Shown: positions 1-38,906 of the stretch, in pieces
Position numbering within the stretch: the first letter of the stretch is position 1
How the letters are laid out: the number at the start of each line of letters is the position of its first letter
DNA from: Rhodothermales bacterium
GTDB taxonomy: Bacteria; Bacteroidota; Rhodothermia; Rhodothermales; UBA10348
DNA: 64,000 bases
NCBI GenBank assembly: GCA_040221055.1
Contig: JAVJVN010000009.1
Span: 158,257 to 222,256 of the forward strand
Reading direction: 5' to 3'
Position numbers and translations under genes: made by a program
Notes under the pieces: model-generated
Told to the model about the DNA's origin: nothing
Seen by the model: the letters and a program-made list of their open reading frames with translations, nothing else
Databases searched by the model: none

Positions 1-47
1 CAAAGCTGCCACCGACCACTGACCCCCATCGACTGACTCCCGCCACC

Positions 48-2402
48 ATGCGCGCCTTCCTCCTCCTGTTGGTCTTCTGCCTTTCCGTCCCGTCCGTGGG
101 AGCCCAGGCCTTGTTGGAGGCCCACATCCTTGGCCCACGTGCCGTTGAACTGACGGTCGATGAATCTGCAAAACCCTTCCGCTCGGAAGATCTGTCATTG
201 ACCGGGCTGGATGGACGGATCATCCCCATCGCCTCTATCCTACCCAAGCGCGCCGATACCTATCTGGTCGTCCCGGCGCAGGACATGGATCCCACCCGGT
301 TACATGTTCTGGCATCCGGAAAGGACGGCAGCCAGGTCTTTGTTCGCCGGGATGCCTGGTTCAAGACGCTCTATTCCGACAAGCCCCTGGGCGCGATTGT
401 GTCGGAAGATCGCACGCATACCGATTTCCGTGTGTTCGCGCCGCGGGCAACCCTGGTCCGTCTGCACCTGTTCTCGGACCGGTACGGGGATCTGGATGCA
501 CCCGACAAATCCATCGACATGAATCGTGACCGGGACGGGGTATGGGAGGCCACAGAGCCTGGAAACCACCACGGCGTGTACTACACGTATACCGTGCACG
601 GCCCGGATGAGCCCGGCAACTGGTTCCATGGGACGCATCCGGTTCACCTCACCGATCCCTACGCCCTCGTCAGTGACGACTCATTCGGAAAGGCTCGCGT
701 GTGGATTCCTGACGCCCCCCCGGTACCGGTCAAGGGCGGACGCCCTTCCATGGAAGACGTGATTGCCTATGAGGTGCATGTACAGGACTTCACCGATGCG
801 CTTCCGGTTGCCGATCACCTGAAAGGCACGTTCTCCGCCATGGCCATGCCGGGCCTGAAGAACGAAGATGGACACCGTGTGGGATTCGACTACCTCGTCG
901 ACCTGGGTATCAATGTGGTCCATCTCATGCCGGTCCAGGAGTACCTGCATTATCCGGACGCTGAATGGCAGGCCGCGTTCGCGGATAACCCGTACATGAT
1001 TGAACAGGATATTGCCCGGGAAAATTACCAGTGGGGCTACCGGACGACGCATGCGCTGGCCGTGGAGTCCCGCTTCCGGGATCGTCGCTCGGATCGGGGG
1101 CTGGAACCCGAACCCGGAGAGGAACGCAGACAGTTCAAGCAACTCGTTCAGGCCTTCCATGAAAAGGGCATATCCGTCATCATTGATGTCGTGCCGAATC
1201 ACACCGGCGAGAACATGGACGGTCGGCACCTCCTGCTGAATTTCAATGGATTCGATCTGCCCTACTATCACCGGACGGACGATTCGCTCCGCCATATCGG
1301 ACCCTTTGGCAACGAGATCAAATCGGAAGAACGACCCATGGTCCAGCGATGGATCCTGGATCAGTTGCGGCACTGGGTCGAGGTTCTCGGTGTGGATGGC
1401 TTCCGAATAGATCTGGCTGGACAGATCGACGAGCAAACCCTTCTCTGGATCAAGTCAGAGTTGCCTTCCGACTTGATCATCTACGGGGAAGCCTGGATTC
1501 CGCCATCCGACCCCGAAGTAGCCTCGGATCCTGATTTTGGCTGGTACAAGGCCGATTCCCCGATAACGTATTTCCAGGATGACGCCCGGAATGCCTTCAA
1601 GGGGCCGGTTTCCGACCCGATCAATCCGCTGACCGATCGCGGTTTCGCAGGAGGTGACGGCTCCGTACGCGAGCGTGCCGTGTTGGGATTGACGAACGGT
1701 TGGGCCGAAGAAGGCGACCCAAACCGCGGTATCAACTACCTGGACATCCATGACAACTGGACACTGGCAGATCAATTCAGCAATGAAGATTGGAACGGGT
1801 TGCTCCACGTGGATGAGAAGGCATTCAGGATTGCCGCAACCTTGTTGTTCACGTCGCTTGGTCCGATCGTACTGCACGGAGGAACGGAAATCATGCGATC
1901 CAAGGGTCATGCCCCACTCGAAGAGGTCGTCAGATGGACGGAGACCGGGCCCCTCTATTTTCACGGAAAGCGGGACTCATACAATCTGCGGAGAGCCAAT
2001 CGATTCCTGTGGGATACGGTCGGTGCTACGACGCCCATGGACTATGCCGGAATGCTGGCCTACTGGAAAGGTCTTGTGGAATTGAGGCTGTCCCATGCCG
2101 GAAGCGTGTTCCGAATGGGGGGCTCCTCGCCGGATGAAGGGCATTATGACTTCATTACTCCGGACAACACGCAGTTGCTGGGTTATCGTGTCGGCGACGA
2201 GGTATTCGTACTCATGAACACGTCGTTCGAAGACGCGGAATTCCATGACCTGCCTCCCTTCGACGGCGCGTGGCGCCTGGTTGCGGACGGAAACCGGATT
2301 GATCTGACCGGCTTGGGAGAACAGACGCTCTCCGGGACAATCCCGTTCATTCCCGTTCCTGCACAAACCGCTCTGGTCTGGGTCCGGAATCCGGACAATT
2401 AG
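48..2402 (+). CDS. Secreted pullulanase-type alpha-glucan debranching enzyme (GH13)
   Basis: A 784-residue GH13 glycosidase, most likely type I pullulanase-like, cleaving alpha-1,6 branches in glycogen, pullulan or starch. Residues 1-20 form a signal peptide (hydrophobic core, then VGAQA), so it acts outside the cytoplasm. A CBM48-like beta domain near residues 120-225 (FRVFAPRATLVRLHLF) precedes the barrel. All four GH13 regions are visible: DVVPNHTGE; GFRIDLAG with nucleophile D455; YGEAW with acid/base E481; and YLDIHDN with D569. The YQWGY sequence near residue 325 matches the pullulanase YNWGYDP signature only loosely, so exact specificity is uncertain. Its stop codon overlaps the stop of the convergent OsmC gene by 4 bp. 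The 47 bp upstream are cut by the window edge and show no clear promoter. Confidence 0.88.
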   Translation: MRAFLLLLVFCLSVPSVGAQALLEAHILGPRAVELTVDESAKPFRSEDLSLTGLDGRIIPIASILPKRADTYLVVPAQDMDPTRLHVLASGKDGSQVFVRRDAWFKTLYSDKPLGAIVSEDRTHTDFRVFAPRATLVRLHLFSDRYGDLDAPDKSIDMNRDRDGVWEATEPGNHHGVYYTYTVHGPDEPGNWFHGTHPVHLTDPYALVSDDSFGKARVWIPDAPPVPVKGGRPSMEDVIAYEVHVQDFTDALPVADHLKGTFSAMAMPGLKNEDGHRVGFDYLVDLGINVVHLMPVQEYLHYPDAEWQAAFADNPYMIEQDIARENYQWGYRTTHALAVESRFRDRRSDRGLEPEPGEERRQFKQLVQAFHEKGISVIIDVVPNHTGENMDGRHLLLNFNGFDLPYYHRTDDSLRHIGPFGNEIKSEERPMVQRWILDQLRHWVEVLGVDGFRIDLAGQIDEQTLLWIKSELPSDLIIYGEAWIPPSDPEVASDPDFGWYKADSPITYFQDDARNAFKGPVSDPINPLTDRGFAGGDGSVRERAVLGLTNGWAEEGDPNRGINYLDIHDNWTLADQFSNEDWNGLLHVDEKAFRIAATLLFTSLGPIVLHGGTEIMRSKGHAPLEEVVRWTETGPLYFHGKRDSYNLRRANRFLWDTVGATTPMDYAGMLAYWKGLVELRLSHAGSVFRMGGSSPDEGHYDFITPDNTQLLGYRVGDEVFVLMNTSFEDAEFHDLPPFDGAWRLVADGNRIDLTGLGEQTLSGTIPFIPVPAQTALVWVRNPDN

Positions 2403-5700: not shown

Positions 5701-8298
5701 TCAGAAGCCCTGCCCGAGGCTGAACTGGAAGGTCCACTTCCGCGTTCCATTGTGCTTTGTGGATACCGGCACGAATGCATCGAAGTTGTATCCATAGGCC
5801 ATTTCCACCATCCCGAGGATGGGCAGGAAGACGCGAGCGCCCAAACCCCCGGAGCGAAACACGTCCGTAGGATTGTACGCGCTGAACGTATCCCAGGAAT
5901 TGGCGGCATCCAGGAACAGGTACGGGGCTGCCTGCAACTGTTCGGACTGTATGGCTATCCACTGGATTTCCGCACCATACTTGTTGAGGATGCGCCCGCC
6001 AACCGGATCATTGCTCGCATTGCGCGGACCAAGAGCGGCCAGCGGATACCCCCGCATGTAAACAACATCCTTTCCGAAGAAACTGAAGAAGCCCTGCGTC
6101 TCAAAAGGTGACCCGCCCACCACGAACCGCTCAAACTCGACTTCGTCACCGGTCAGCGATCCGATGAAACCGTAATCGGCCGTGAAGCTGACGGACAGTT
6201 TCCGGGTCAGCGGTGCGTACCATGACGTATTCAAGCGCCACTTGTGGAACTGGATCAGGTCCCCGATAGGAGGAGCGACCTGTACGGACAGCAGGAATTT
6301 GGACCCCTGGCTCGGAAAGAGCGGGTGATTCGTGTTATTTCGCGACAGGTTCTGCGAGATGGTTACCTGTTGACTGACGCCCTGGGGCAACGTGGCAATC
6401 CAGTCCTGGTTCTGGAAATACTGGTAGCCGACGGACGTGGATGTACTGAACCAGTTGTCCGGCCACTTCAATCGCTGTTCGTAGAAGACGTTCTGGTTGA
6501 AGGTCAGCAACCGGCCGTTGGTGGTCCCCGCACCGGTATCCAGGAACGTCAGGCCCTTTATGCGGGAGAACGACGTGGAGAACCCGATCGGCTTCGGTTT
6601 GCCACGGAACCAGGGCTCCGTGAAGGACATGGAGTACTGCTGGTACCGGGATCCGTTGGTCTGGACGCCGACGCTGAACCGCTGTCCGTCACCAGTAGGC
6701 AACGGTGACCAAGCGTCCTTCTTGAAAATATTCTGGGCTGAGAAGTTGTTGAAGTTGAATCGCAACTGCAGGATGAGGCCGAATTGGCCCCACGTACCGG
6801 ACAACTCAAGCTGGCTCGTGCCCGTTTCAGCAAGGCTGTAGGCCAGGTCCACCGTCTGCGTCTCGTCACGGATTTCAATTCCCGGACCCGCCGCCAGCGA
6901 CTCCTGGGTGAAATAGTTCAGCTGCATGAGGCGGCGGATGGACTCCTGGATCTGGGAGCGTCGGAACGTCGATCCCGGAATGGTAGACAGTTCACGACGG
7001 ATGACGTGCTCCTTGGTGGTCGTATTTCCGGCGATCCCCACGGTGCCGTACGTATAGACATCCCCCTCGTACACGTTGAAGGTCAGGTCCAGGGAGTCCC
7101 CGTCGACGGTAACCCGCGGTTCCACCTGGAACCGCATGTGACCTGAATTCTGATACAGACTGTAGACGTCATTGTCCTTGCCCGTGCCGTACAGATTCTC
7201 ATCGATGGTTTTGCTGTTGTACGTATCGCCTTCGTACAGCCCCAGCCGTTCCGTCAACGCCTCGTCACTGTACAGCGTATTGCCCGTCCACTCGATATCC
7301 CGGACCGCATATTGGGGTCCCTCATCCACGGTCACTTCCAGGACCATGTAGGGGTCCGATCCGTCCGCGTTCATCATCATGACCGTATCCTGCACGACAC
7401 GCGCATCATAATGACCGTTCTCATTGTACAGCTGGACAATCCGGTCCAGGTCCTCCGCGAACGTGTCACGGTCCAGGATGGCTTTTCTCCAGAAGCGCAA
7501 GGTGGACTCCTTTTTCGTTTCCATCGCCTTCCGGAGTTTCCTGTCGGAAATCCCGGTATTTCCTGCGAAACGGATATCCTCGACCTTCACTTTCGGCCCG
7601 CGATCAATCCGGAAATCCAGGTCGATCGAACGATCGTCTATGCGTTCGCGAACGACATCGACGGTGGTCAGCGGGTGCCCCTTGTCCAGGTAGAAGTCCT
7701 CGATGATCTGGACGGTTCGGGCAATGGCACTCTCCTGTACCGGCCCCCTGGAAACCAACGGCACTTCCTTTCTCAGATCTTTGGCATGCCCTTTTTTCAC
7801 GCCCGAGAATTCGTACGAACCCAGGGTAGGTGCCCGCTGGACGCGGATGGCCAGAAAGACGCCCTGACCGACGCGGCGCTCCTGTACGATCTGGACATCC
7901 TCATAGGTGCCCAGTCGATGGATGGCCCGGATGGCTTCTGAAAAAGCAGGGTCGCCGGGAACGCTTACTTTCTGGCCGATGGTCAGCTGACTCGTCTGCT
8001 GGATGAAGCTGCGACTGAATTCGTCAACATCCCCCTCAACGGATATTCCGAGTATGTCCAGTTGCTCCGGTCGTGAATACGCCTGGGGCTCGAACTGGGC
8101 GAATGCGACCGTGGAGCCCTGGGCCAGGACGAGCAGAACCAAGGCCGGGAATAACAGATTGAGGAAACGGGGCAAGAGATATGAGCGGTCTGTTGAATGG
8201 TGCGGGCGGGGTAACGGTCCATACCGACGCCTGGTTTCACAAAATTGGGGCGAATACCGGTCCCCGACATGGCCCGTCGTCCGAGCGTACACCTTCAC
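5701..8298 (-). CDS. bamA: Outer membrane protein assembly factor BamA
   Basis: An 865-residue BamA/Omp85 protein that inserts beta-barrels into the outer membrane. After the leader come POTRA repeats over roughly residues 75-440, then a 16-strand barrel ending in ...FSLGQGF with the C-terminal phenylalanine expected of outer-membrane proteins. The GTG start overlaps the uppS stop by 4 bp (GTGA). The predicted export sequence (hydrophobic stretch about residues 41-60, cleavage near VAFA-Q at 67) lies behind a polar extension of about 38 residues, so an internal non-ATG start is possible. No other ATG lies between the GTG and the hydrophobic stretch. Confidence 0.93.
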   Translation of the reverse strand: MKVYARTTGHVGDRYSPQFCETRRRYGPLPRPHHSTDRSYLLPRFLNLLFPALVLLVLAQGSTVAFAQFEPQAYSRPEQLDILGISVEGDVDEFSRSFIQQTSQLTIGQKVSVPGDPAFSEAIRAIHRLGTYEDVQIVQERRVGQGVFLAIRVQRAPTLGSYEFSGVKKGHAKDLRKEVPLVSRGPVQESAIARTVQIIEDFYLDKGHPLTTVDVVRERIDDRSIDLDFRIDRGPKVKVEDIRFAGNTGISDRKLRKAMETKKESTLRFWRKAILDRDTFAEDLDRIVQLYNENGHYDARVVQDTVMMMNADGSDPYMVLEVTVDEGPQYAVRDIEWTGNTLYSDEALTERLGLYEGDTYNSKTIDENLYGTGKDNDVYSLYQNSGHMRFQVEPRVTVDGDSLDLTFNVYEGDVYTYGTVGIAGNTTTKEHVIRRELSTIPGSTFRRSQIQESIRRLMQLNYFTQESLAAGPGIEIRDETQTVDLAYSLAETGTSQLELSGTWGQFGLILQLRFNFNNFSAQNIFKKDAWSPLPTGDGQRFSVGVQTNGSRYQQYSMSFTEPWFRGKPKPIGFSTSFSRIKGLTFLDTGAGTTNGRLLTFNQNVFYEQRLKWPDNWFSTSTSVGYQYFQNQDWIATLPQGVSQQVTISQNLSRNNTNHPLFPSQGSKFLLSVQVAPPIGDLIQFHKWRLNTSWYAPLTRKLSVSFTADYGFIGSLTGDEVEFERFVVGGSPFETQGFFSFFGKDVVYMRGYPLAALGPRNASNDPVGGRILNKYGAEIQWIAIQSEQLQAAPYLFLDAANSWDTFSAYNPTDVFRSGGLGARVFLPILGMVEMAYGYNFDAFVPVSTKHNGTRKWTFQFSLGQGF

Positions 8299-21520: not shown

Positions 21521-23518
21521 TCCGGCGTGGAGCGATCTTCCCGGGGCCGGCAACCCGGTCTGTGGCTCCACGACCGCATCCAGGATGTTCCGGACACCGA
21601 TCCGGATATCCACGAACGTCCCTGCGTCCGAGACGACCGACCGCCAGCGGACCTGGCCGTCCAGCGTTGCTGCACCTTCCAGTCGATCCGTACCGGGTGA
21701 CGGAGACATGCCCCAGGAAGGCCCGCGGTAGGACACCGACGCCCGTACCGCCCATCGCTGCAGGAACGTACGTTCCACATCCACCCTACCCAGCCTCTCC
21801 GGCTTTTCGATCATGCGTACCGACGCGCCATCCTGACGTGCCCGATGCCACATGACGGAGGCGTGTGCATCCATTCGAACCCGCCCGGGCATCGAGATAC
21901 CGACGACGCTTTCGACTCCGGTGGTATGACTTCCGTCCAGGTTGACACGCCGTCGCTTCGTCCCTTCCAAGGTTTGCACCCACTCCTGATCAATCGTGTG
22001 ACGGGATCGTCGATGAAACGCCGTGACTTCCAGGCCCATGATGTCCCGCGCATACCCCAGGGTCCATTCGCCCATCCACACGGACTCCGGCCGAAGTCCC
22101 GGATTTACAACGAATCGGTGCAAGGCCTCACCGAACAATTCCCGCAGCGTCGGAAAACGTGCTTTCTTTCCGGCTGCGGCCTGGAGCCACCAGTGGTCCC
22201 CATGACGATACTGCCAGGTGGCATGAGCCGTCCAGTCCAGGAATGGATCCCGTCGGGGTTTTTCTCCGGTCACAGGCATGAACTGTGCATCGAGGCTCCC
22301 GCCTGCACCCCACCGCATCGCCGACCCCAGCCTGCCTGCAACATCCACTCCGGACGACAGCAGGATCTGACCGAATTGTTCGTTGAGTCCAGGCACGCTT
22401 CCCTCCGGGAGTGGCATGTCCCGTTGATGATGGGTTGACCCCGTACCGAAAAGCGACCATGTCACCCGCGCTCCGCGCCATGTCGATTGTGTCCGGGACC
22501 GGAAACCGACGGACCGGTCCCGATCCTGCTGTCGCCCGTCCGGTGCGGCATAGTTGCCGTCGGGGAAGTCGTGGATGACCTGCCCGAACCGGGTCCACCA
22601 CAGGGAAAGATCCCAACCGGGGAGCGGGCGTCCTCCGGCAATGAGGGTCGAGAACGTCCAGTCGGGATACCGCCAATAGCGGACTGCTCCGGATTCCGCT
22701 GGAAGATGTCCTTCGGGTGCCACGCCTTTCCGCCCGTCGACGTGCAGGATCGAGAAGGCGAGCCGATTGGACCACGACACACGTCCGAACACGGTTCCCC
22801 TGTGCATGTCGGTATTGGTTCGCCAGCGTCCTGCCTGGTTGAAGGGCAATTCCGCATTGTCAGGTACGGGAAGTCCGCTGCGTCCGAGCAGGGAGGCCAT
22901 GCCGATCCAGGACCAGGCGCGACCGGATCCGGACACCAATCCGTGGACATGCCGCTCCTGGCCTGTTCCAGCACGTACCTCCATCTCTACCAGGCCCTCC
23001 GGATCCAGGACCGACCGGGTCTCCAACTGGATGACACCGCCAGCCGTGTTGGGTCCGAACGACGACGACGCAATTCCCCGGACCACCGTCATTCCACCCA
23101 GCACGGACGCCGGAAGCATGTCCAGATCCATACGATTGTCCCACGGAATGTTCAGTGGGGCGCCGTCGAGCAGCAAGGATACTTGCCGCTCGCCGGCGCC
23201 CCGGATGTAGACCAGGTGTTCTCCGCGGGAGTTGGTCTGGATGTGGGCTCCGGGAACCAGCTCCAGGACGTCGGCCACTCCGACGCCACCCAAGCCTGCC
23301 AGTCGAGCCAGGGAGGTACGATACACGGACGAGCCGTTCGGAAAGGTCGAGCGAGGCTCAGCGCCGGCTGAAATGACGATTCCCGCCAGATCATACTGGC
23401 GCAATGAATCCGGAGGAAGCGTACTCCCATCCTGAGCTGAACACACGTCGGCAAAGAGACACAGGTACAGGAAGGCCCGTGCGACGCGACGTGTCCATCC
23501 GGAACCCACCCGACCCAT
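21503..23518 (-). CDS. TonB-dependent outer-membrane receptor
   Basis: A 671-residue receptor. The signal peptide ends near FADVCSAQ. The plug domain lies about residues 40-170: LAGIVISAGAEPRSTF resembles a TonB box region, and ADVLELVPGAHIQTN, VYIRGAGERQVSLLLDGAPLN and GGVIQLETRS follow. A 22-strand barrel ends ...GRSLHAGLSVTL. The start at 23518 shares one base with the glgC stop (TGATG), so it is translationally coupled to glgC. The substrate is not evident: it resembles BtuB/FepA types and is not a SusC with a SusD partner. Confidence 0.88.
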   Translation of the reverse strand: MGRVGSGWTRRVARAFLYLCLFADVCSAQDGSTLPPDSLRQYDLAGIVISAGAEPRSTFPNGSSVYRTSLARLAGLGGVGVADVLELVPGAHIQTNSRGEHLVYIRGAGERQVSLLLDGAPLNIPWDNRMDLDMLPASVLGGMTVVRGIASSSFGPNTAGGVIQLETRSVLDPEGLVEMEVRAGTGQERHVHGLVSGSGRAWSWIGMASLLGRSGLPVPDNAELPFNQAGRWRTNTDMHRGTVFGRVSWSNRLAFSILHVDGRKGVAPEGHLPAESGAVRYWRYPDWTFSTLIAGGRPLPGWDLSLWWTRFGQVIHDFPDGNYAAPDGRQQDRDRSVGFRSRTQSTWRGARVTWSLFGTGSTHHQRDMPLPEGSVPGLNEQFGQILLSSGVDVAGRLGSAMRWGAGGSLDAQFMPVTGEKPRRDPFLDWTAHATWQYRHGDHWWLQAAAGKKARFPTLRELFGEALHRFVVNPGLRPESVWMGEWTLGYARDIMGLEVTAFHRRSRHTIDQEWVQTLEGTKRRRVNLDGSHTTGVESVVGISMPGRVRMDAHASVMWHRARQDGASVRMIEKPERLGRVDVERTFLQRWAVRASVSYRGPSWGMSPSPGTDRLEGAATLDGQVRWRSVVSDAGTFVDIRIGVRNILDAVVEPQTGLPAPGRSLHAGLSVTL

Positions 23519-24798
23519 CAAATGATGGTCCCGTCGGGAATCGTGGCGTTTTTCGGGATGACCACAATGCCGTCCCGGATGCACCAGTTCGGTCCATCGG
23601 CTTCCGTCAACCCGTCCCGGTTCCGGATGACGCATCCCTTGCCAATGCTGGCATTCCGGTCAATGATGGCATGCTCGATCACCGTATCGTCCCCCACTCC
23701 CGGAAATGCCGGACCCAGCGTGGTCGGCCGAATGTCCGGATCATGCCAGCGGAAAAAATCCGCCCCCATCATGATGGTGTTGCTCATGGTAACGTTGTTA
23801 CCGATGAAGGACCGGATCCCGATGACGCAGTTCGTGATCTTGGCATTCCCGATGACACTGGCCTCAGCCACCAGGGAATTCTCCACGAATGACTTCTCGA
23901 TTTTTGCCGGCGGGAGCATGCGGGCATTTGTGTAGATCGGCATGCGGGGATTGTACATGTCGAATTCGGGCGACTGACCGGCCAACATCAAGTTGGCATC
24001 AAAGAATGACCGGATGGTCCCGATGTCGCTCCAGTACCCGTCGAATGCATAGGAAGCAACCCGTTGTGAGCCAATAGCATTCGGGATTATCCCCTTGCCG
24101 AAGTCGTGGGCACCGGGCGCATCATCCAACAGTTTCTTGAGCACACCCCTGCTGAACACATAAATGCCCATGGAAGCCAGGAAGGTACGCCCGGCGGCCG
24201 TCATGGAAGGCGAAACCGGGCTTTCCTTTCCAGCCAACGAGTCCGCTGAAGGCTTCTCGTGGAACTCCGTGATGAATCCGTCTTCGTCGGTCTTCAGGAT
24301 GCCGAATCCGGGAGCATGGTCGGCGTGAACGGGAATGGTGGCAATACTGATATCCGCGCCGGAGCTGACATGGGCATTCAGCATGAGCCGGTAGTCCATG
24401 GTATACAGTTGATCTCCGGAAAGGATGAGCACATGCTCATACCGGTAGTTGACCAGGTGCTGCATGACCTGACGAACCGCATCGGCCGTTCCCTGGAACC
24501 ACTCCTTCGAGTCAGGGGTCTGTTCGGCAGCCAGGATGTTCACGAACCCGTCCCTGAATCGGTCGAACCGATAGGCCTGGGAAATATGCCGGTTCAGGCT
24601 CGCCGAGTTGAACTGCGTCAGGACAAAGATCCGATTGATATCGGAATTGATGCAGTTGGAGACCGGTATGTCGATAAGCCGGTATTTTCCCGCAAGGGGA
24701 ACCGCGGGCTTTGAACGCATTTGCGTCAAGGGATACAGGCGTGTACCTGCGCCTCCGCCCAGGATGATGGCCAGCGTATTTGCAGGATCATACGGCAT
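23518..24798 (-). CDS. glgC: Glucose-1-phosphate adenylyltransferase (ADP-glucose pyrophosphorylase)
   Basis: A 426-residue GlgC, making ADP-glucose from glucose-1-P and ATP for glycogen synthesis. The loop [33 protein letters not shown] and [13 protein letters not shown] are of the cyanobacterial/plant type, as is the C-terminal left-handed beta-helix ([21 protein letters not shown]). The frame extends 26 codons upstream, but ATG at 24798 starts just before the first strand. glgA and glgB are not adjacent; the glycosidase at 48-2402 could act on the same polymer outside the cytoplasm. Confidence 0.94.
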
Positions 24799-24884
24799 GA
24801 GGTACAGTGTACTGCGTGCCGATGCACCCGTCAAGTTGTGAAATCGTGAAACCCCCGGCACCAAGGGTCGGTACACGGGCCACT
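24799..24884. promoter_or_regulatory. Divergent intergenic region, glgC / DUF4175 gene
   Basis: 86 bp between two genes transcribed outward. It must hold promoters for both units, but I see no clear consensus element and no large inverted repeat. Confidence 0.25.
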
Positions 24885-28863: not shown

Positions 28864-29640
28864 ATGGCAAACCCGAAAAGGATACTGGTCATTTCAGGAG
28901 AAGTCGCTCCTTTTTCCGAAACGTCGTTCATTGCCGGCCTTGCCCGCAATCTTCCGGAAGCGCTTCACGAGACAGGTGAGTATGAGACGCGGATCATGAT
29001 GCCGCGCTATGCTACGGTCAGTGAACGAAGAAATCGGCTGCATGAGGTCATCCGATTGTCAGGAAGCGAAATTCGACTGGGAGAACGCGTGGAAACCCTC
29101 CGCGTCAAGGTGGCCTCCATCCCGGGCATCCGGCTCCAGGTCTACTTCATGGACAATGTCCACTACTTCAAACGGAAGGGCATTTTTGCGGACCGTCAGG
29201 GCAAGCTGTTCGAGGACAACCTGGAACGGGCCGCTTTTTTCTCCAGGAGTGTCATCCGGACCATCCGGAACCTGGGTTGGCAACCGGATCTGGTTCACGC
29301 CTTCGGTTGGATGAGCGGGTTCGTGCCCTATGTCCTGCGGACGGAATTCGCCAACGACGAATTGTTCAAGGATGCCAAGATTGCATATACCCCGCAAGTC
29401 GTGGAATTCGACGGCGCGCTGAAGGAAGGTGATATCGCCGGGCTGAGCCTTGAGGCCGATGCTGACCTTGTCGGGCTCAGCCCGAACCGGATTGGCATGC
29501 GGTATGCGGATGGCGTCATTTTCCCGGAACAGCTGGAAGCGCTTGCTGAAGGTCATCCGGTATTCAAAGGGACCATCGAAGAACAGCGCGACCAGGCCAT
29601 GGCCCTTTACGACTCCATCCGGCCGGTCGTAGCTGTCTGA
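28864..29640 (+). CDS. Single-domain starch/glycogen synthase-like protein (GT5 N-terminal domain only)
   Basis: A 258-residue protein corresponding to the N-terminal Rossmann domain of GT5 starch synthases: RILVISGEVAPFSE, then NLPEAL, MPRYATVSERRNRLHEVI and HAFGWMSGFVPYVLR. Full GT5 enzymes are about 480 residues with a second Rossmann domain that carries the nucleotide site; that domain is absent here, and there is no adjacent open frame encoding it. The KTGGL substrate loop is replaced by SETSFIAGLA. This short form is common in Bacteroidota as I recall, so it is a distinct family rather than a broken gene. Catalysis on ADP-glucose is unlikely. ATG 28864 is chosen over an in-frame ATG at 28774. 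Confidence 0.8.
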   Translation: MANPKRILVISGEVAPFSETSFIAGLARNLPEALHETGEYETRIMMPRYATVSERRNRLHEVIRLSGSEIRLGERVETLRVKVASIPGIRLQVYFMDNVHYFKRKGIFADRQGKLFEDNLERAAFFSRSVIRTIRNLGWQPDLVHAFGWMSGFVPYVLRTEFANDELFKDAKIAYTPQVVEFDGALKEGDIAGLSLEADADLVGLSPNRIGMRYADGVIFPEQLEALAEGHPVFKGTIEEQRDQAMALYDSIRPVVAV

Positions 29641-29689
29641 TCACAGCGGGAAACCTGACACTCCAGCAGTGCATTGTAGGTGAACTCGT

Positions 29690-29730
29690 CGAAAACCCCA
29701 TCGGCCTCGGTCAGTGGGGTTTTCGGTTTG
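29690..29730 (+). terminator. Rho-independent-like terminator after GT5-like gene
   Basis: A perfect 10-bp stem, CGAAAACCCC (29690-29699) with GGGGTTTTCG (29716-29725), loop 16 nt, followed by GTTTG. The A-run in the left arm and T-run in the right arm make it potentially bidirectional. It separates the GT5-like gene from the lipoprotein gene, so these may be partly uncoupled. Confidence 0.7.
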
Positions 29731-29756
29731 TACGCTCGTTTCATATTGACGACTGA

Positions 29757-30908
29757 ATGTACCGTCCTCCAGCGACAGCCCTGTTCCTGATTCTTGCCAC
29801 GCTCCTCTCCACCGGATGCAGTGATGACCCCTCAAACGTAGGTATCGGTCTGGTCGATGCCCAAGCCGGCGATGCGCTGGTGGAAACCCACGATGCCGTG
29901 ACTTTTGCGGCCGATGGGCCCGCGGATATCACCGGCGGGGACATCACAACCGGTGCCACGCGGGCCCTCGCCGGGCTTGTGGACGATCCGAGGATCGGCG
30001 TCTTCACCGCCAATGGATTCGTTGACTTCGTACCGTCCGGGACCTTCCCCGCGTCCTTTACCTCGGGCACGGTTTCGTATGTGGAGCTGCTTCTGGATAT
30101 CGATTACGTCCACGGTGATACGACCCGGACCCTTGGAATGGACGTATCGGACATTTCGACGGCATGGACGAGCGTCGGTCGTCGTGCCGATACCACGTTG
30201 ACGGTCGGTTCACCCATCCAGGCCTTCGATGTCAACCCGATCTCCCGGACGGTACGGGTTGTCATGCCGGACGAATGGGTCGCCGTCAATGGGGCCGTTC
30301 TCCGGTCCACGACCTTCCAGGACGATTTCCACGGCTTCCGCATCCGGGGTCTCTCGGGCAATGCCGTGGTCGGATTCAACCTGGTCAACTCCCGCATGCG
30401 TGCATCGGCCGTGGCCGGCGACACGGTATCGTTCGCCATGTCAAAAGTATTGACCACGCTGCCCGCCGATCCGACCGGCGGACCGGCGGGTGCGGTCGTG
30501 CTCCAGGATGCCGGCCGCAATACCGTCACACTGAAATTTCCGGACCTGCCCTCCATGGCCGTCCATCAGGCCGTGGTACGGGCCCAGGTGTACACGCCAC
30601 AAGCAGAGGATCCCCAGGGATTTGCACGCCCTGTGCCACCGGCTATCGGACTCCGGGCGGTGACTGCGGACAATTCCGTCCGCCTGCCACTGCTGACCGT
30701 GCAGGCGGCCGAAGACGGATCTGTGGTGTTCGAGGACCCCATCATCACGCGGATCATGCAGCAAGCCGTCCTCGGCTTGTCCGAGTTCGACCGTTTCGAG
30801 CTGTATATCCCGACCGGCAGCTCAACCGTCGGATCGTTGTCGCTGACGGGTGGACCATCGGCCGGCGGTGGCCCTCGCCTGATCGTTACCCATACTCCGC
30901 TTGATTGA
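29757..30908 (+). CDS. Predicted outer-membrane lipoprotein (DUF4270-like position)
   Basis: A 383-residue lipoprotein: a hydrophobic signal followed by a lipobox LLSTGC with C21 as the lipidated residue, then SDDPSNVGIGL. The rest is beta-rich, with repeated patterns such as VSYVELLLDID and LTGGPSAGGGPRLIVTH. In Bacteroidota a DUF4270 lipoprotein commonly follows the same short GT5 gene; the gene position and overall build agree, but I cannot confirm the family by eye. It starts 27 bp after the terminator and is followed 3 bp later by an outer-membrane protein gene. Confidence 0.65.
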   Translation: MYRPPATALFLILATLLSTGCSDDPSNVGIGLVDAQAGDALVETHDAVTFAADGPADITGGDITTGATRALAGLVDDPRIGVFTANGFVDFVPSGTFPASFTSGTVSYVELLLDIDYVHGDTTRTLGMDVSDISTAWTSVGRRADTTLTVGSPIQAFDVNPISRTVRVVMPDEWVAVNGAVLRSTTFQDDFHGFRIRGLSGNAVVGFNLVNSRMRASAVAGDTVSFAMSKVLTTLPADPTGGPAGAVVLQDAGRNTVTLKFPDLPSMAVHQAVVRAQVYTPQAEDPQGFARPVPPAIGLRAVTADNSVRLPLLTVQAAEDGSVVFEDPIITRIMQQAVLGLSEFDRFELYIPTGSSTVGSLSLTGGPSAGGGPRLIVTHTPLD

Positions 30909-30911
30909 GCC

Positions 30912-32210
30912 ATGCTGAAGTTTACCCGACCTGCCTTGGCGGCCATCGCCCTTCTTGTCTTCACGGGCGCATCCTTGTCCATGGCCCAGAGCCGTTCAGA
31001 CGGCTCGGTCTACTCCCGTTTCGGACTCGGTGAGCGTGCGTTTTTCCTGTCCTCCCAGTCCCAGGCGATGGGTCATGCCGGCTCGGCGCTCGGATCGTTC
31101 CGGTACGCGAACCTCGCGAATCCGGCGGGTCTGGCCGATCAGTTTTTCACCCGTGTGAACGGTGGAATGACCATGGAGCGCCTTACCTCCTCCGAAACCG
31201 GTCTCGACGACAGCATACTGAATTCGGGGCGGTTCAATGCCGTGCACATCAGCTTCCCCATCCGGACGCGCAAGACAGGCATCGGTCTGTCGCTCGAACC
31301 GTTCACTCATGTGAACTACCGGATTGACAAGACCACGAGCATTGTCGCCGACGGAACGGAAACCCCCGTACTGACAACTTTCCAGGGAAACGGGGGTCTT
31401 TATCAAATGACAGGGGCATTGGGGCAGCGGCTCACGCCCAACCTGTCTGCCGGACTGGCCGTCTCGTACGTCTTCGGCCTGCTGGAAGAAGCCCAACGGA
31501 CCACCTTCAACAATGTACGATTCACGGACAGCGACATATCCAACAATACCCGCCTCAGTGGTGCATCGGCCACACTGGGACTCCGGTTCCAGCGACAGGG
31601 TATCCTTGGATGGGATCGTCCGATAGCCATGGGTCTGTCCGTGACACTCCCCTCGACGCTCTCCGGCGAACGGACGCTGACGTTGGACGCCGGGTCCACG
31701 TCCGATACCCTTACCGTCGTCGGATCCGGGAATATCGATCTGCCCGTACGCATCCTTTTCGGCCTCATGTTCCAACCAGCGACGGAGTGGACTGTAGTCG
31801 CCGATGTACACCATGAACGATGGTCGTCCCTTTCTTCGGACTTTTCCCTGCCCGGCGTCGGAGCGGGGAACCAGGGCGTGATGGACCGCACCAGACTGGC
31901 GGCCGGATTCGAATACTGGCCCGGAGCACGACGTCCGTTCGGCCCCTATTTCGTACGAATGGCGTACAGAATGGGCGTTTACATGGACGAGTCGTATGTT
32001 TCGCCGCATCCTTCAGAACAGATCCGGTCCGTCGGTGTAACCGGGGGCGTCAGCGTTCCAACCGGCATTCCCGGCACGACTATTGATCTGAATCTGGATG
32101 TCGGGCGTCGAGGGACGACCTCCGATGGTCTCGTCAGGGATCGGTACATGAAATTCGGTATAAACATAAATTTTGGTGAACGTTGGTTCGACCGCTTGCC
32201 ACTCGGCTGA
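30912..32210 (+). CDS. Predicted outer-membrane beta-barrel protein (FadL/PorV-like)
   Basis: A 432-residue protein with a signal peptide (ending SLSMAQ) and a glycine-rich N-terminal block, YSRFGLGERAFFLSSQSQAMGHAGSAL, where SQAMGHAG and NLANPAGLA recall FadL/PorV-type outer-membrane proteins of Bacteroidota. Alternating beta strands run to the end (KFGININFGERWF). The role is unknown: transport of hydrophobic compounds or a secretion-shuttle function are both possible. It is directly coupled to the lipoprotein gene upstream (3 bp) and followed by an exported TPR protein. Confidence 0.7.
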   Translation: MLKFTRPALAAIALLVFTGASLSMAQSRSDGSVYSRFGLGERAFFLSSQSQAMGHAGSALGSFRYANLANPAGLADQFFTRVNGGMTMERLTSSETGLDDSILNSGRFNAVHISFPIRTRKTGIGLSLEPFTHVNYRIDKTTSIVADGTETPVLTTFQGNGGLYQMTGALGQRLTPNLSAGLAVSYVFGLLEEAQRTTFNNVRFTDSDISNNTRLSGASATLGLRFQRQGILGWDRPIAMGLSVTLPSTLSGERTLTLDAGSTSDTLTVVGSGNIDLPVRILFGLMFQPATEWTVVADVHHERWSSLSSDFSLPGVGAGNQGVMDRTRLAAGFEYWPGARRPFGPYFVRMAYRMGVYMDESYVSPHPSEQIRSVGVTGGVSVPTGIPGTTIDLNLDVGRRGTTSDGLVRDRYMKFGININFGERWFDRLPLG

Positions 32211-32252
32211 CAGGACCAGGATCTTACCTTCATCAGTCATTCAAAGACCACC

Positions 32253-33584
32253 ATGATCAGGAAGAACGCACCCAATCCGAAAATCGTCATGCTGACGCTG
32301 CTGATGGCATTGTTCGCCACCACAGGCGTTTCCAAGGCTGCCTTCGCCCAGAATGAATGCGAAGCCGCCGACGAGAACACCATCCGGATGAACTACAGCC
32401 TCTATTACGAGGACTTCAAGATCGAGAGCTACGAGACGGCGCTTCCGTATTTGCGTTGGATCCTGAAGTGCGCCCCGGCATTCCCGACGAATTCCGACCG
32501 CAATTACCGTCGTGCCGTGGAGGCCTACACCGGTATTGCCACGTCCCTGGAAGATCCGGAGCTGCGCCGCGCCTACCTCGACAGCGCGCTCTACATCCAC
32601 GATGTAGCCGTGCCCGAGTTGTCGGCTGCTGGCGCTGAAGTAAGCGAGTCCTGGTGGATCTTCAACAAGGGTCGATTCATCCAGACCCACGGTGCGGACC
32701 TCCCCGATCTGCAATCCGAAGTCGGCAGCCTCTATCTGCAGACCTACGAACTCGACAAGGAGAGCCTGCAGTCCTATTACATCAACTTCATCATCGATGA
32801 CTTCGTGCGGAAGGAAGACAAGGCGTCGGCCGTCGACTTCATGGACCGCGTGGAATCCGACTTCCCGGACAACCAGGAACTGCAGGACTTGATCGACCAG
32901 TGGCGCGGACAGCTGTTCACGTCACCCGCCGAGCGGATTTCCTTCCTCGAGGGCCAGATTGAAAAGAATCCTGACGATTCGGAACTGAAGGAAGAACTCC
33001 TTGAGCTCTACATGCAGGAAGGGATGCGCGACCTGGCCTATGAGTTGTCCGAATCCGTCATGCAGACCTCCCCTTCTGCGCGACTGTATCGCGTTGTGGG
33101 CAAGATGCGCCTGGAGGATGGAGACTCTGACGATGCCATTCGCCTCTACGAGGAATCCCTCACCATGGAGGGCGGCATGGAGTCTGCCCGTGAGGTGTAC
33201 TACAACATCGGCATCGCCCATCAGCAGGAAGGACGGTTGGCGCGTGCACGTACGGCCTTCAGGGAAGCACTGAGTGCAGACCCCAATTACGCCATTGCGC
33301 TGATTGCCATCGGCGACCTGTACGTCTCGGCCGTCCAGGGCTGCGGATCGTTCGAGCGTGAGGACCGAGCCGTTTACTGGCTCGCGGCCGACTACTTTGA
33401 ACGGGCAGCAGCCCGCGCAGCCGACGATCGGATTGCTCAGCAGGCCCGCAGCCGCGTCTCGAACATCGCCCGGTTCTTCCCGACCGCTGAAGACAAGTTC
33501 TTCAAGAACTGGAATCCCGGCGACCGATTTGCCATCGACTTCGGTTGCTATACATGGATCAATGAATCGACCACCGTTCGTTGA
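32253..33584 (+). CDS. Exported tetratricopeptide-repeat protein
   Basis: A 443-residue protein with a signal peptide (membrane-like stretch IVMLTLLMALFATTGV, cleavage near AAFAQ) followed by helical repeats. Clear TPRs occur near residues 290-380, for example DSDDAIRLYEESLTM and YYNIGIAHQQEGRLARARTAF, then ALIAIGDLY. Four cysteines in the mature part could form disulfides. It closes the lipoprotein-barrel-TPR unit and is followed by a strong terminator, so the three probably work together at the outer membrane. Confidence 0.8.
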   Translation: MIRKNAPNPKIVMLTLLMALFATTGVSKAAFAQNECEAADENTIRMNYSLYYEDFKIESYETALPYLRWILKCAPAFPTNSDRNYRRAVEAYTGIATSLEDPELRRAYLDSALYIHDVAVPELSAAGAEVSESWWIFNKGRFIQTHGADLPDLQSEVGSLYLQTYELDKESLQSYYINFIIDDFVRKEDKASAVDFMDRVESDFPDNQELQDLIDQWRGQLFTSPAERISFLEGQIEKNPDDSELKEELLELYMQEGMRDLAYELSESVMQTSPSARLYRVVGKMRLEDGDSDDAIRLYEESLTMEGGMESAREVYYNIGIAHQQEGRLARARTAFREALSADPNYAIALIAIGDLYVSAVQGCGSFEREDRAVYWLAADYFERAAARAADDRIAQQARSRVSNIARFFPTAEDKFFKNWNPGDRFAIDFGCYTWINESTTVR

Positions 33585-33615
33585 CGGCAGTTGACCTGAT
33601 CATTCGGTATATTTC

Positions 33616-33653
33616 GGGGGCGGAACACACGCGTGTTCCGCCCCCACTTTTTT
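33616..33653 (+). terminator. Strong Rho-independent terminator
   Basis: A perfect 13-bp stem GGGGGCGGAACAC / GTGTTCCGCCCCC around a 4-nt loop ACGC, followed by AC and six T. It lies 31 bp after the TPR gene and 31 bp before eno, cleanly separating the two transcription units. Confidence 0.93.
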
Positions 33654-35294: not shown

Positions 35295-36313
35295 ACATGA
35301 CGATGTCCATGCCCCAACTTGCCATTGGAATCGACCTGGGTGGAACGGCCATCAAGGCCGGTCTCGTATCTTCGGAAACCGGGTTGCTGGCGGAACGGAT
35401 TGCCGATACGGATGCCGATCGTGGTCCGGCCTACATTCTGGACACCATCGCCGATCTCGTCCGGACGCTCTCTGCGGAGGCCGGTCACGCCACCTTGGCC
35501 GGTGTCGGCGTGGGTGCCCCGGGTGCCATCAGTTGGGATCGCACGACCGTATCCTGGCCGCCGAATTTTCCGGGTTGGGAGGTCGTACACCTGGGCAAGG
35601 AATTGGCCTCGCGACTGGACAGCACGATGCTGACCATGGTGGAAAACGATGCCAATGCCGCCGGCCTGGGATCGGCTCACTACGGAGCCGGCAAACAGTT
35701 CGACTCGTTCATCATGGTCACCCTCGGGACGGGCGTCGGAGGTGCCATCATCTATCAGAATCGCATTTTCCGCGGCTCCACGGGCGCCGCCGGTGAAATC
35801 GGTCACATGACCATCGATTATGAGGGACCTGTGGCGCGCAGTGGCGTCTCGGGGGCCATTGAAGCCTATCTCGGGCAGCGGTTCCTTTCCCGGCATGCAC
35901 GATACCGATTGATGAATCGCAAGGACAGCCTCCTCCACCAGATGGCGGGTCCCGATTTGATGGGGATCACACCGAAAATGCTGTACGATGCGGCGATGTC
36001 CGGTGACGAGGGTGCCCGTGAAGTATTGGCCTGGGCCGGCCATAAACTGGGATGCGTCCTGGGTTCGGCCGCCAATCTGCTGGACATCCGCAAATTCGTT
36101 GTGGGTGGTGGGCTCTCGGGTGCTGGTGACCTCATTCTGGATGCCACCCGCCGGACCCTGCCGTCGTTCGTTCTCCCGGCGTTGGCCGACGATCTCGAAG
36201 TGGTCCAGGAAACCGCCGGAAATGACGTCGGTATGCTTGGAGCCGCACATCTTATTTTCCAACACGTTGACGAAAAAGGTTTCCATTCCGGAACCGTGCA
36301 CCGTGCACCGTAG
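35291..36313 (+). CDS. ROK-family sugar kinase (glucokinase-like) lacking the zinc cysteines
   Basis: A 340-residue ROK kinase. The ATP phosphate loop IGIDLGGTAIKAGLV, catalytic D120 in ENDANAAGLG, the TLGTGVGGAII block and GEIGHM with His172 are conserved. The usual CxCGxxGCxE zinc site is ARSGVSGAIE here: A182, S184 and A189 replace the three cysteines. ROK glucokinases phosphorylate glucose to glucose-6-P, but the metal-less site leaves the substrate uncertain. The start GTG 35291 overlaps ftsB by 4 bp; ATG 35297 is an alternative. Its end overlaps lptD by 11 bp. Confidence 0.85.
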   Translation: MNMTMSMPQLAIGIDLGGTAIKAGLVSSETGLLAERIADTDADRGPAYILDTIADLVRTLSAEAGHATLAGVGVGAPGAISWDRTTVSWPPNFPGWEVVHLGKELASRLDSTMLTMVENDANAAGLGSAHYGAGKQFDSFIMVTLGTGVGGAIIYQNRIFRGSTGAAGEIGHMTIDYEGPVARSGVSGAIEAYLGQRFLSRHARYRLMNRKDSLLHQMAGPDLMGITPKMLYDAAMSGDEGAREVLAWAGHKLGCVLGSAANLLDIRKFVVGGGLSGAGDLILDATRRTLPSFVLPALADDLEVVQETAGNDVGMLGAAHLIFQHVDEKGFHSGTVHRAP

Positions 36314-38906
36314 GACCTGCGGTGGCGCACCCCTCTCCCGGTGCCTCGCCTTCATCGTTTTTCTGACCCTTTCTTCCGTTCGTCTCCACGCGCAGTCCGT
36401 CGACGGGAATGAACTGTCCGAACCGGTCGTGTTCTCTGCGGCGGACTCCCTGGTCATTGTCCTGGGAAGCGACGCCAGGACCGCCACCCTGTTCGGCGAG
36501 GCCGAGGTTTCCTATGAGGAAGCCCGACTCAATGCTTTTGCCATCAACCTGTTTTTCGACAAGGACCGGCTGCGGGCCAGTGGCAGACAGGACACGACCG
36601 GTTGGATTGGCCGGCCGACCTTTACACAGGGTTCGGAAGCATTCACCGGGGACTCCCTTTTTTTCGATATGGTCAGTCGCCGCGGACGCGTGGTCGGAGC
36701 GCAGACCGCCATCGAGGAAGGGTTCATACGTGCCGCATCGGTAACCGCCGGGGAAGACAGTACGCTCTACGTCCGGGACGGGGCCTATACCACCTGTGCC
36801 TGCGTGGAGGATCCGTCCTACTCCTTGCGGTCGGACAAGATGAAGCTCATCAATCGGAAGTGGATCTACACGGGGCCCATCCAACTGTACCTCTACAACA
36901 TCCCTACCCCGCTCTGGCTGCCCTTCGGTTTCCTGCCCGCCCAGGACACCCGCCGTTCAGGCCCCCTTCCTCCTACGTACGGGGAAGACCAATTCGGATT
37001 CTACCTGCGTGATTTCGGATGGTACTTTGCGATGAATGACTACATGGACCTCCAACTCCAGGCCGGATTCTGGACGCAGGGCAGTTGGGAATCGCGTGTC
37101 CTGTACCGCTACAACAAACGATATGGCTTCGATGGTCAAACCCGGATTGATTACGCGCGCTTCCGGAGCGGCGTGAGAGGCGACCCTGCGTTCTCCATCC
37201 GACAGACCGGCTCGTTTCGCTGGACGCACAACCAGACCATCGGCCAGTCCGCAAATATGAATGCCGGCGTGAACTTGTCGTCATCCACGTACCTGCGCGC
37301 GGTATCGCAGCAATATGATGACCGGATCCGGCAGGATATCCAGTCGACCCTCCGTTTTTCAAAACGATGGACCGGCCAGAACCTGTCCGTGCAACTGGAT
37401 CAACGCCAGCAACTCGCGACCGGGCAGGTATCCATGACGCTTCCTTCGTTCCGTTTCTCACAGAGCAGCTTCAAACCGTTCAGCACGGATGGACGCGCGC
37501 CGGGCCAACAGGAAGGCATACGGGACAAGCTTACCATGAGCTATTCCTTCAATGTGGACAATCGGTTCAGTTTCTCACCGAAAGCGTCATTCCCGGATGA
37601 CCCGGGCGCGGAAGATATCACATGGTGGGATGCCCTCCGATCTCCCGAAGACTATCGGCGGGCGACCAATGGAACGGATCCATTTTCTTTCCAGGCCAGC
37701 CACCGGATTCCCGTTTCCGCCCCCTTTTCCGTGCGGCGAATACCGGGATTGGGTGCCGTCAATCTGAACCTGTCGCCGGCGGTCAACTATACGGAAGACT
37801 GGTTCATCCGCACCGAAACCCGATCGCTCGCGCCGGATTCCTCGGGTGTGCAGTCGGAGTCCGAAGCGGAGTTCTTTGCGCTGAGACAATACAATACGTC
37901 CCTTTCCGGGAGCACCGTGTTCTACGGTCTCTTCCCAGTGTCGGCCTTCGGGTTCGACGGGCTTCGCCACACCCTGCGACCGAATGTGGGATTCACGTTC
38001 CGCCCGGATTTTTATGCCGAACGATTCGGGTACACCCGGACCTATACCGATGCAGACGGTGAATCGGTTACCTATGCCGCTGTTCCAGGTGTGGGACGTG
38101 GCAAGCAGCAGGCCCTCACGTTTTCCTTGAACAACACCTTCGAAACCCGTCGCAGCGATCCCGACGCTCCGGCGGACGGGCGACTTCAGACCCTGAAGTT
38201 GTTGGACCTGTCAGCCTCCACCAGCTACAATTTTGCTGCCGATTCGCTCAAATTCAATGATGTGCGTCTTACGGCCCGGACCCGGCTTCTCGGCAAAGTG
38301 GATGTGGATGCCCGCAGCACGTTCTCGGCCTATGATGTGGATCCGTCCGGACGGACCATCAATGCGCAGGCCTTCTCCCTGAGGACACCCTTTGGCCGCC
38401 TGACATCCGCCGACATCACCATGCGCACGTCGCTACGGAGTCGGCGGGGTTCCGGGGACCGGCCACTGACGGCGCCACGCGGAAGCATGGTTCCAGGTAC
38501 TGGACAGATGACCGGACAGATCCTGCAGAACACCATGACGTCGCCGCAGACGGATTTTTCCATTCCTTGGTCCTTGAGTCTGGACCTGTCCTGGGGAATG
38601 GTGAATACAGGCGTCCAGACCATCCGGCGGGCGACCGTGAACAGCTCCTTCGATCTCAGCCTGACACCCAATTGGAAAGTTACCGGGCGAACCGGTTACG
38701 ACTTCGAACGTCAGGAGCTGGTGACTTCCAACTTGGCACTGGCTCGGGATTTCGACTGCTGGCAGATGTCGTTCAACTGGATTCCGTTCGGGAATTATCA
38801 GTCCTGGGGATTCGATCTGCACGTCAAGAGCGGCCACTTGCGCGATCTTCTCCGTATCCGGCAACCCAAGTCGGACGTTCGCGATCGATTCGGATCCTTG
38901 TTGTAA
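36303..38906 (+). CDS. lptD: LPS-assembly outer-membrane protein LptD (Bacteroidota type)
   Basis: An 867-residue LptD-like protein inserting LPS into the outer membrane. The signal peptide (RCLAFIVFLTLSSVRLHAQ) precedes an OstA/LptA-like beta-jellyroll (about residues 40-170; VLGSDARTATLFGEAEVSYEEARL), then a cysteine-bearing strap (TTCACVED), the IPTPLWLPFGFLP block typical of Bacteroidota LptD, and a large barrel. The open frame runs back into the ROK gene, but GTG 36303 is the start that yields a signal peptide. No lptE is adjacent. The next small gene starts at its last stop base. Confidence 0.88.
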   Translation: MHRRTCGGAPLSRCLAFIVFLTLSSVRLHAQSVDGNELSEPVVFSAADSLVIVLGSDARTATLFGEAEVSYEEARLNAFAINLFFDKDRLRASGRQDTTGWIGRPTFTQGSEAFTGDSLFFDMVSRRGRVVGAQTAIEEGFIRAASVTAGEDSTLYVRDGAYTTCACVEDPSYSLRSDKMKLINRKWIYTGPIQLYLYNIPTPLWLPFGFLPAQDTRRSGPLPPTYGEDQFGFYLRDFGWYFAMNDYMDLQLQAGFWTQGSWESRVLYRYNKRYGFDGQTRIDYARFRSGVRGDPAFSIRQTGSFRWTHNQTIGQSANMNAGVNLSSSTYLRAVSQQYDDRIRQDIQSTLRFSKRWTGQNLSVQLDQRQQLATGQVSMTLPSFRFSQSSFKPFSTDGRAPGQQEGIRDKLTMSYSFNVDNRFSFSPKASFPDDPGAEDITWWDALRSPEDYRRATNGTDPFSFQASHRIPVSAPFSVRRIPGLGAVNLNLSPAVNYTEDWFIRTETRSLAPDSSGVQSESEAEFFALRQYNTSLSGSTVFYGLFPVSAFGFDGLRHTLRPNVGFTFRPDFYAERFGYTRTYTDADGESVTYAAVPGVGRGKQQALTFSLNNTFETRRSDPDAPADGRLQTLKLLDLSASTSYNFAADSLKFNDVRLTARTRLLGKVDVDARSTFSAYDVDPSGRTINAQAFSLRTPFGRLTSADITMRTSLRSRRGSGDRPLTAPRGSMVPGTGQMTGQILQNTMTSPQTDFSIPWSLSLDLSWGMVNTGVQTIRRATVNSSFDLSLTPNWKVTGRTGYDFERQELVTSNLALARDFDCWQMSFNWIPFGNYQSWGFDLHVKSGHLRDLLRIRQPKSDVRDRFGSLL

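Follow-up and report, generated by a model that had tools for sequence, protein, structure and literature searches.

A probable BAM canopy gene unit and a neighbouring, predicted starch-synthase pseudoenzyme in a Rhodothermales bacterium

Introduction

The beta-barrel assembly machine (BAM) of Bacteroidota and of the wider Fibrobacteres-Chlorobi-Bacteroidetes (FCB) group carries a canopy of BamG and BamH that was described in 2025 (PMC12611786, PMC12578637). Both BamG and BamH are essential in Flavobacterium johnsoniae, where they and BamM make up a canopy over the exit site of BamA; BamADGH constitutes the core of the machine across Bacteroidota, and BamG/BamH are found in six further FCB phyla (PMC12611786). 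The same BamG-BamH unit exists in Bacteroides thetaiotaomicron and Porphyromonas gingivalis, with BamH corresponding to Bt4306 (PMC12578637). Here, we analyzed 64,000 nucleotides (hereafter the window) from a Rhodothermales bacterium (GenBank assembly GCA_040221055.1, contig JAVJVN010000009.1, positions 158,257 to 222,256), with an emphasis on four consecutive genes encoding a short protein of glycosyltransferase family 5 (GT5), a lipoprotein, an outer membrane barrel and a tetratricopeptide repeat (TPR) protein. An earlier note, made from the sequence alone, had seen in them a hint of an envelope system of unknown purpose; the envelope link was right, but the purpose need no longer be called unknown, as the lipoprotein and the barrel appear to be BamH and BamG.

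The GT5 gene also has described relatives. BT_4307 of B. thetaiotaomicron, annotated as a putative glycogen synthase (PMC8941943, PMC10797578), is numbered beside Bt4306 (BamH), so that, by locus number, the neighbourhood is the same in that species. BT_4307 also appears in a table of PMC8941943 as one of the proteins that a vitamin B12 probe enriched. A 2024 review in Chem. Rev. (PMC11046441) noted that a GlgA-GT5 gene fragment survives in Bacteroidetes. This fragment is very probably the same gene as the short GT5 considered here, and the passages of the review that were consulted neither assign it a role nor connect it with bamH or describe a retained C-terminal helix. As for regulation, the extracytoplasmic function (ECF) sigma factor SigP of P. 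gingivalis binds promoters of type IX secretion system (T9SS) genes, including porV (PMC4800418). A literature search, with most subscription journals outside its reach, returned no text linking the GT5 fragment to bamH, dealing with a single excision or reporting ECF-type elements in front of bamH. While BamG and BamH, their spread in the FCB group and the survival of the GlgA-GT5 fragment have already been published, the ECF-type elements in the gap between GT5 and bamH are new.

Results

We consider it likely that the locus (Table 1) comprises a BAM canopy unit with an ECF-type promoter and, as a separate and conserved neighbour, a starch-synthase pseudoenzyme. The four genes and the terminator behind them (28864-33645) were confirmed at the positions given in the earlier note, and its description of three exported proteins ahead of a strong terminator held as well. 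The first of these proteins carries a lipobox, the second is a beta-barrel, and the third, a TPR protein, begins with a signal-like sequence. The bamH stop and the bamG start are 3 nt apart, while bamG is separated from the TPR gene by 42 nt and GT5 from bamH by 116 nt. A GTG at 28774 was considered as the start of GT5 and rejected, the ATG at 28864 being backed by relatives.

The barrel is BamG as judged from its sequence, which scores 267 bits on the NCBIfam BamG equivalog model NF053685 (cut-off 250) and matches the solved BamG chains 9n2d_B (E 2.6e-26), 9hiv_F (2.9e-21) and 9hjm_F (2.7e-15); all 20 aligned barrel sequences matched NF053685 at E<=0.001. Binding of this protein to BamA and BamH is predicted by homology. 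The genome, which is 3.32 Mb in size, also encodes BamA, within the window and 20 kb from bamH-bamG, and BamD, on another contig. These features are shared with the Bacteroidota BAM complex.

The lipoprotein is BamH-like according to its modelled fold and a profile comparison. It has the lipobox LLSTGC, with an invariant Cys21 followed by acidic residues in most aligned sequences, and is predicted to be a lipoprotein with an exported N terminus of the surface type. The three best Foldseek matches of its AlphaFold2 model (pLDDT 87.8) are the solved BamH chains 9his_G, 9hjm_G and 9n2d_C (E 8e-13 to 1.5e-11), at moderate TM-scores of 0.55-0.61 (TMq), and a profile of 19 Rhodothermales BamH-like sequences aligns with the P. 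gingivalis chain 9hjm_G over the N-terminal 166 positions (E 1.1e-12). The DUF4270 link raised in the earlier note was borne out: 15 of the 19 sequences match PF14092 at E<=0.01, whereas that of the window is not among the 15 and stays below the threshold (E 0.21, 11.1 bits against a cut-off of 27). Fold, lipobox and the BamG neighbour are again shared with the Bacteroidota BAM complex. On the other hand, bamH and bamG are adjacent here, whereas Fjoh_1412 (BamG) and Fjoh_0823 (BamH) of F. johnsoniae are numbered far apart, and the present unit differs further in having a TPR gene as its third member and ECF-type elements in front.

The TPR gene also adjoins BamG in other classes, and was located 3' of bamG outside Rhodothermales in loci L098 (10059-11393), L108 (5307-6554), L066, L086 and L090. 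Its product matches mostly generic TPR proteins among solved structures and, judging by adjacency, probably assists BAM or lipopolysaccharide transport in the periplasm. At L098, the TPR gene is followed by a short lipoprotein-like gene that looks by eye like LptC, a hint that the two have a common function in the envelope.

Table 1. Features of the locus and related genes in the window
Feature	Position	Strand	Basis
Short GT5-derived protein, 258 aa; N-terminal Rossmann domain and C-terminal crossover helix	28864..29640	+	PF08323, active-site comparison, AlphaFold2, GlgA alignment
P1, ECF-type two-box promoter-like element GAAAC-N16-GCAT, 9 nt past the GT5 stop	29650..29674	+	Conservation in Rhodothermales gaps
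Terminator-like hairpin, 13-bp main stem AAAACCCC/GGGGTTTT, between P1 and bamH	29689..29726	+	Folding energy
bamH-like; predicted surface-lipoprotein-type, DUF4270-related protein, 383 aa	29757..30908	+	Lipobox, profile comparison, fold
bamG; predicted FadL-type outer membrane barrel of the BAM complex, 432 aa	30912..32210	+	NF053685, PDB 9n2d_B
Exported TPR protein, 443 aa	32253..33584	+	TPR Pfam families; 3' of bamG in most relatives
Strong intrinsic terminator closing the bamH-bamG-TPR unit	33616..33645	+	13-pair GC-rich stem, T-run tail
bamA, core of the BAM machine	5701..8298	-	TIGR03303, 348 bits (cut-off 297); POTRA and Omp85
LptD-family lipopolysaccharide assembly protein, downstream; true start probably further in	35988..38906	+	PF19838 (LptD_2), E 2.7e-118
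GlgC (ADP-glucose pyrophosphorylase), 4 kb upstream, divergent	23518..24876	-	PF00483, E 1.2e-60; PF25247, E 4.7e-43

The synteny survey revealed that the linkage of the four genes, on which the earlier note had built, is conserved far above chance. Of 20 fetched Rhodothermales loci, 18 have BamH downstream of GT5, 19 have BamG there and 18 have the TPR gene (exceptions L047, L048 and L045); the named relatives of the window genome are Rhodothermales metagenome-assembled genomes and species such as Roseithermus sacchariphilus and Salinivenus. Counting those 67 of the 80 named loci that have 3 kb of sequence downstream of GT5, both BamH and BamG were found in 57, as was the TPR gene (57/67). 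Eight of the 10 exceptions belong to the more distant loci (L182-L192), in which either the Rhodothermales profiles become less sensitive or bamG is located at another site, and the other two (L167 and L178) possess BamG with no BamH call. The survey was widened to 118 genomes of the phylum (29 of the own class, 28 further genomes with short GT5, 35 of other classes and 26 of family f25), for which the labels Bacteroidia and Chlorobia are inferred. In the own class, 28 of 29 genomes have a short GT5 with BamG linked to it; the further short-GT5 genomes, presumably Bacteroidia, carry DUF4270/BamH next door (26/28 by hand count, exceptions G061 and G065) and BamG elsewhere, which agrees with the GT5-DUF4270 neighbourhood that the earlier note had put forward; and full-length GT5 in the other classes has BamG at most 2.8 kb downstream in 32 of 35 genomes. 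The bamH-bamG pair, together with the adjacent GT5, is older than the divergence of the sampled classes.

The GT5 protein itself belongs to PF08323 (E 3e-38), as had been proposed, and GlgA models match it over the N-terminal ~190 residues only. The K-T-G-G-L loop of GlgA is replaced by SETSFIAGLA, again as noted earlier, so that SETSF occupies the donor loop, while the H161 site reads YTPQV and the catalytic His is gone. In comparison to the ~480 residues of GlgA, this protein and the other short members have no C-terminal Rossmann domain with its R/K and E-P-C-G motifs, and no C-terminal GT-B domain was found in frame after the short GT5. The other GT5 of the genome (C12) is a separate GlgA with all motifs intact, and the view that ordinary starch synthesis is unlikely therefore stands. 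Nevertheless, the AlphaFold2 model (pLDDT 86.6) is close to GlgA: VIA-align placed its residues 5..253 on 1..477 of the E. coli enzyme (2qzs) with Z 24.3 and an rmsd of 2.7 over 230 residues. The last helix superposes on the C-terminal crossover helix of GlgA, with the invariant Tyr249 paired with E. coli Tyr473, and it is thus the middle of the protein that would have been removed, not the end. A plain truncation was rejected on these grounds, and the earlier description of the protein as only the N-terminal domain is right as to the missing Rossmann domain and wrong as to the helix. The tail test on sequence only was weak, with the best match of a full-length tail model lying C-terminally in 19 of 33 short proteins, versus 0-4 of 33 in 20 shuffles, and with no match in the window protein itself. 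These observations describe a protein that is predicted to be catalytically dead.

A tree of 66 N-domains, including 35 short GT5s and 14 canonical GlgAs, placed all 35 short proteins in one clade (support 100/99) nested among the bam-linked full-length GT5s, with canonical GlgA separate from this bam-linked clade (100/99), which suggests a single origin of the short form. Some linked full-length GT5s keep all catalytic motifs, whereas those of L068 and L091 and the presumed-Chlorobia proteins of L072 and L092 do not, implying that catalysis was abandoned more than once while the gene stayed. These four degenerate full-length proteins are probably inactive, and in presumed Chlorobia the degenerate protein is the sole GT5 match counted per genome. 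Residues R55, H60, R64, L65 and Q92 are conserved to 93-100% in short GT5s, linked full-length GT5s and the presumed-Chlorobia proteins alike; in canonical GlgA, the commonest residue at each of these sites reaches 36% at most. A comparison of two species of the genus gave a dN/dS of ~0.11 for GT5, compared with 0.28 for bamH and 0.15 for bamG, at high dS. A GT5 match was present in all 60 close relatives searched, though only at paralogue level in one that is 70% complete (G005). The pattern argues for purifying selection on the GT5 protein for something other than glucose transfer, and for a pseudoenzyme rather than debris.

The gap between GT5 and bamH measures 93-435 nt in Rhodothermales and carries promoter-like elements and, often, a terminator-like hairpin. 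P1 (GAAAC-N15/16-GCAT) was found in 34 of 69 gaps, versus a shuffle mean of 0.24, one occurrence on the reverse strand and 31/5115 other windows; the count takes in one spacer of 13 and becomes 33/69 with spacers of 14-17 only. It is present in all 20 loci nearest the window, and its information is concentrated in the two boxes, with little between. P2 (YATACSA-N16-CGTT) occurs in 24 of 68 gaps, with a spacer of exactly 16 in 23 of them (0.11 in shuffles; 3/3359 other windows). The 65 measurable gaps comprise 16 with P1 only, 7 with P2 only, 17 with both and 25 with neither. A PorV2-family outer membrane protein gene likewise has P1 39-132 nt upstream of it in 20 of the 25 relatives that were usable (expected, 0.10), including 20 of the 21 in the window's family, and never inside the gene; 5 of 30 loci were dropped because the gene start was not located. 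This protein scores 299 bits, just under the PorV2 cut-off of 325 and over that of the wider PorV family. Two conserved boxes at a fixed spacing of 15-17 nt upstream of a gene are the layout of ECF sigma promoters, and P1 and P2 look like putative promoters of this type; their GAAAC and CGTT boxes presumably resemble known ECF promoters. The bamH-bamG-TPR genes probably form a transcription unit of their own. The genome has 21 ECF-type genes over the cut-off. With regard to possible autoregulation by a cognate sigma factor, 1 of 27 ECF-type loci carries P1, with a spacer of 17, at the gene start, where it overlaps the longest reading frame. The motif proposed for the SigP regulon differs from P1 and P2, and bamH and bamG are unmentioned in the passages of PMC4800418 that were consulted.

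A large P1 regulon was sought in four genomes and could not be upheld, the 29 matches being similar in number to those of the reversed-pattern control in three of them (8 versus 2 in the fourth, G036). Inspected by eye, each of the four genomes has bamH among its matches, three have PorV2 and two have purF. The two P1-like sites directly ahead of purF (L215 and L232) come from a single genus and carry little weight. Another P1-like site, which may be due to chance, precedes a STAS-like gene with an ECF sigma gene downstream (L220 at G000:C4:1960; L246).

Terminator-like hairpins lie between P1 and bamH in 28 of 68 gaps, as opposed to 8/3399 other windows. That of the window (AACCCC..GGGGTT) has the same placement, the region 29680-29760 folding with a dG of -32.2 (z -3.58). 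It may end GT5 transcripts, shape the bamH leader or act as an attenuator.

Discussion

The application of what is known from F. johnsoniae and B. thetaiotaomicron to this locus suggests the following scheme: (i) bamH-bamG-TPR (29757-33584) would be the Rhodothermales version of the BAM canopy, in which, by homology with the solved structures, BamG is a FadL-type barrel behind BamA, and BamH, clamped to BamG, arches over the exit site for new barrels and shelters the extracellular parts of large outer membrane proteins; (ii) an ECF-sigma-type promoter just 3' of the GT5 stop probably drives the unit, and the supply of canopy may track envelope demand together with the PorV2-type protein, as the conserved elements suggest; (iii) GT5 would have stood beside bamH-bamG already in the ancestor of the phylum, and would have lost its C-terminal Rossmann domain once, keeping the N-domain and the C-terminal helix; and (iv) the pseudoenzyme may be kept by purifying selection for a non-catalytic role in the cytosol, most likely by binding a partner or ligand via the clade-specific R55, H60, R64, L65 and Q92.

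Several observations weigh against parts of this scheme. As for the canopy, the window BamH taken alone is below the Pfam DUF4270 cut-off, its sequence being too diverged, and a PF14092 search of the window's own genome gave no match. The tree behind the single origin was rooted at the midpoint, with two long branches flagged. With regard to the promoters, of the 48 more distant Rhodothermales gaps, 36 lack P1 (12 have it), and none of the four usable loci outside the window's family has it upstream of PorV2; P2 is absent from the window; genome-wide, P1 shows no excess over the reversed control (6 versus 7 in G000), and a large regulon is not shown; and a P1 upstream of a terminator-like hairpin is odd for a bamH promoter. 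A sigma-70-type scan found no promoter-like site either, although such a scan is uninformative on ECF types.

The presence of the hairpin directly after P1, the flat genome-wide counts and the fact that P2 can be read on the other strand too would suit an explanation by which P1 and P2 are bound by a different regulator or are parts of structured RNA in the bamH leader. We consider this rather unlikely, given two strong boxes at a near-constant spacing of 15-16 nt with little information between them, the same layout upstream of PorV2 genes and not inside them, and no credible Rfam family in the stretch searched (29500-30000).

The role of the GT5 protein can likewise be explained by several lines of reasoning. 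It might serve glycogen or ADP-sugar metabolism, e.g., as a regulatory subunit, the link to bamH being an inherited accident of gene order, and this would be in line with GlgC near the locus, as in the window and, among 20 relatives, in the stretches fetched from 8, with the intact motifs of linked full-length GT5s in several lineages and with a GmhB-like HAD gene, seen by eye, that separates GT5 from bamH in L067 and adjoins GT5 in L092. We regard this as possible but doubtful, since the genome has its separate, intact GlgA, no GlgC was found near the locus in the other 12 relatives (with only one weak match in another set of 20 loci), and it is unusual for an accidental gene order to last this long. 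If GT5 were instead a dedicated BAM or outer membrane factor, i.e., a cytosolic regulator or scaffold that sets the production of BamH and BamG, perhaps as a sugar-nucleotide sensor, the adjacency kept in all three groups of linked genomes would be accounted for, together with the tight loci of presumed Bacteroidia, where the open frames are 8-33 nt apart or overlap (L056, L059, L060 and L061). The depletion constructs of PMC12611786 used the promoter of fjoh_0824, which is numbered beside bamH (Fjoh_0823) and would be the GT5 gene. This idea is nonetheless an improbable one: 26 presumed-Chlorobia genomes (f25) keep a full-length GT5-clade protein and have neither BamG above the cut-off nor any DUF4270 match, so that GT5 need not be a BAM factor; in Rhodothermales the promoter-like elements and hairpins lie between GT5 and bamH; and the GT5 protein goes without mention in the passages of PMC12611786 and PMC12578637 that were consulted. 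The N-domain fold, intact in the model, is what could be said for a short GT5 that is still catalytic and takes its C-terminal half from another protein. This is highly improbable, because the remaining part, too, has lost the donor loop lysine, the GG and the catalytic His, and because the degenerate full-length members of L068 and L091 drift from catalysis likewise with no loss of a domain. A pseudoenzyme separate from the canopy unit, as set out above, is the reading that we retain.

With this assignment, an unnamed exported cluster becomes a set of BAM canopy genes of a kind essential in F. johnsoniae, and P1 and P2 provide a concrete candidate promoter for control of the BAM machine. It also raises the question of why, across this large phylum, nearly every sampled genome keeps a GT5-clade protein that is apparently dead in most lineages here and usually sits beside an outer membrane assembly gene; the reading of this gene as a glycogen synthase, for instance of BT_4307 as a sign of glycogen storage (PMC10797578), is probably misleading. 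The reason why the remnant is kept and the ECF-type elements both deserve work. A bolder and quite speculative proposal, to which we give little credence, is that the pseudoenzyme, having exchanged catalysis for the binding of a ligand or partner, is a phylum-wide cytosolic sensor that couples envelope building to sugar-nucleotide supply by tuning bamH-bamG, and that tandem ECF-type promoters in Rhodothermales put the BAM canopy and the T9SS-type PorV2 in one envelope-stress regulon.

Two further features of the surroundings were observed. Near GT5 in several classes, a GmhB-like HAD gene and HldE-like pieces were seen by eye (L067 9510-10082, L092 4239-4841, L068, L091 and L063), which hints at ADP-heptose synthesis beside the ancestral cluster. 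Upstream of GT5 in the window (24807-28283), a gene without a credible Pfam family encodes a 1158-aa protein with long coiled-coil-like stretches that is conserved beside the locus in relatives.

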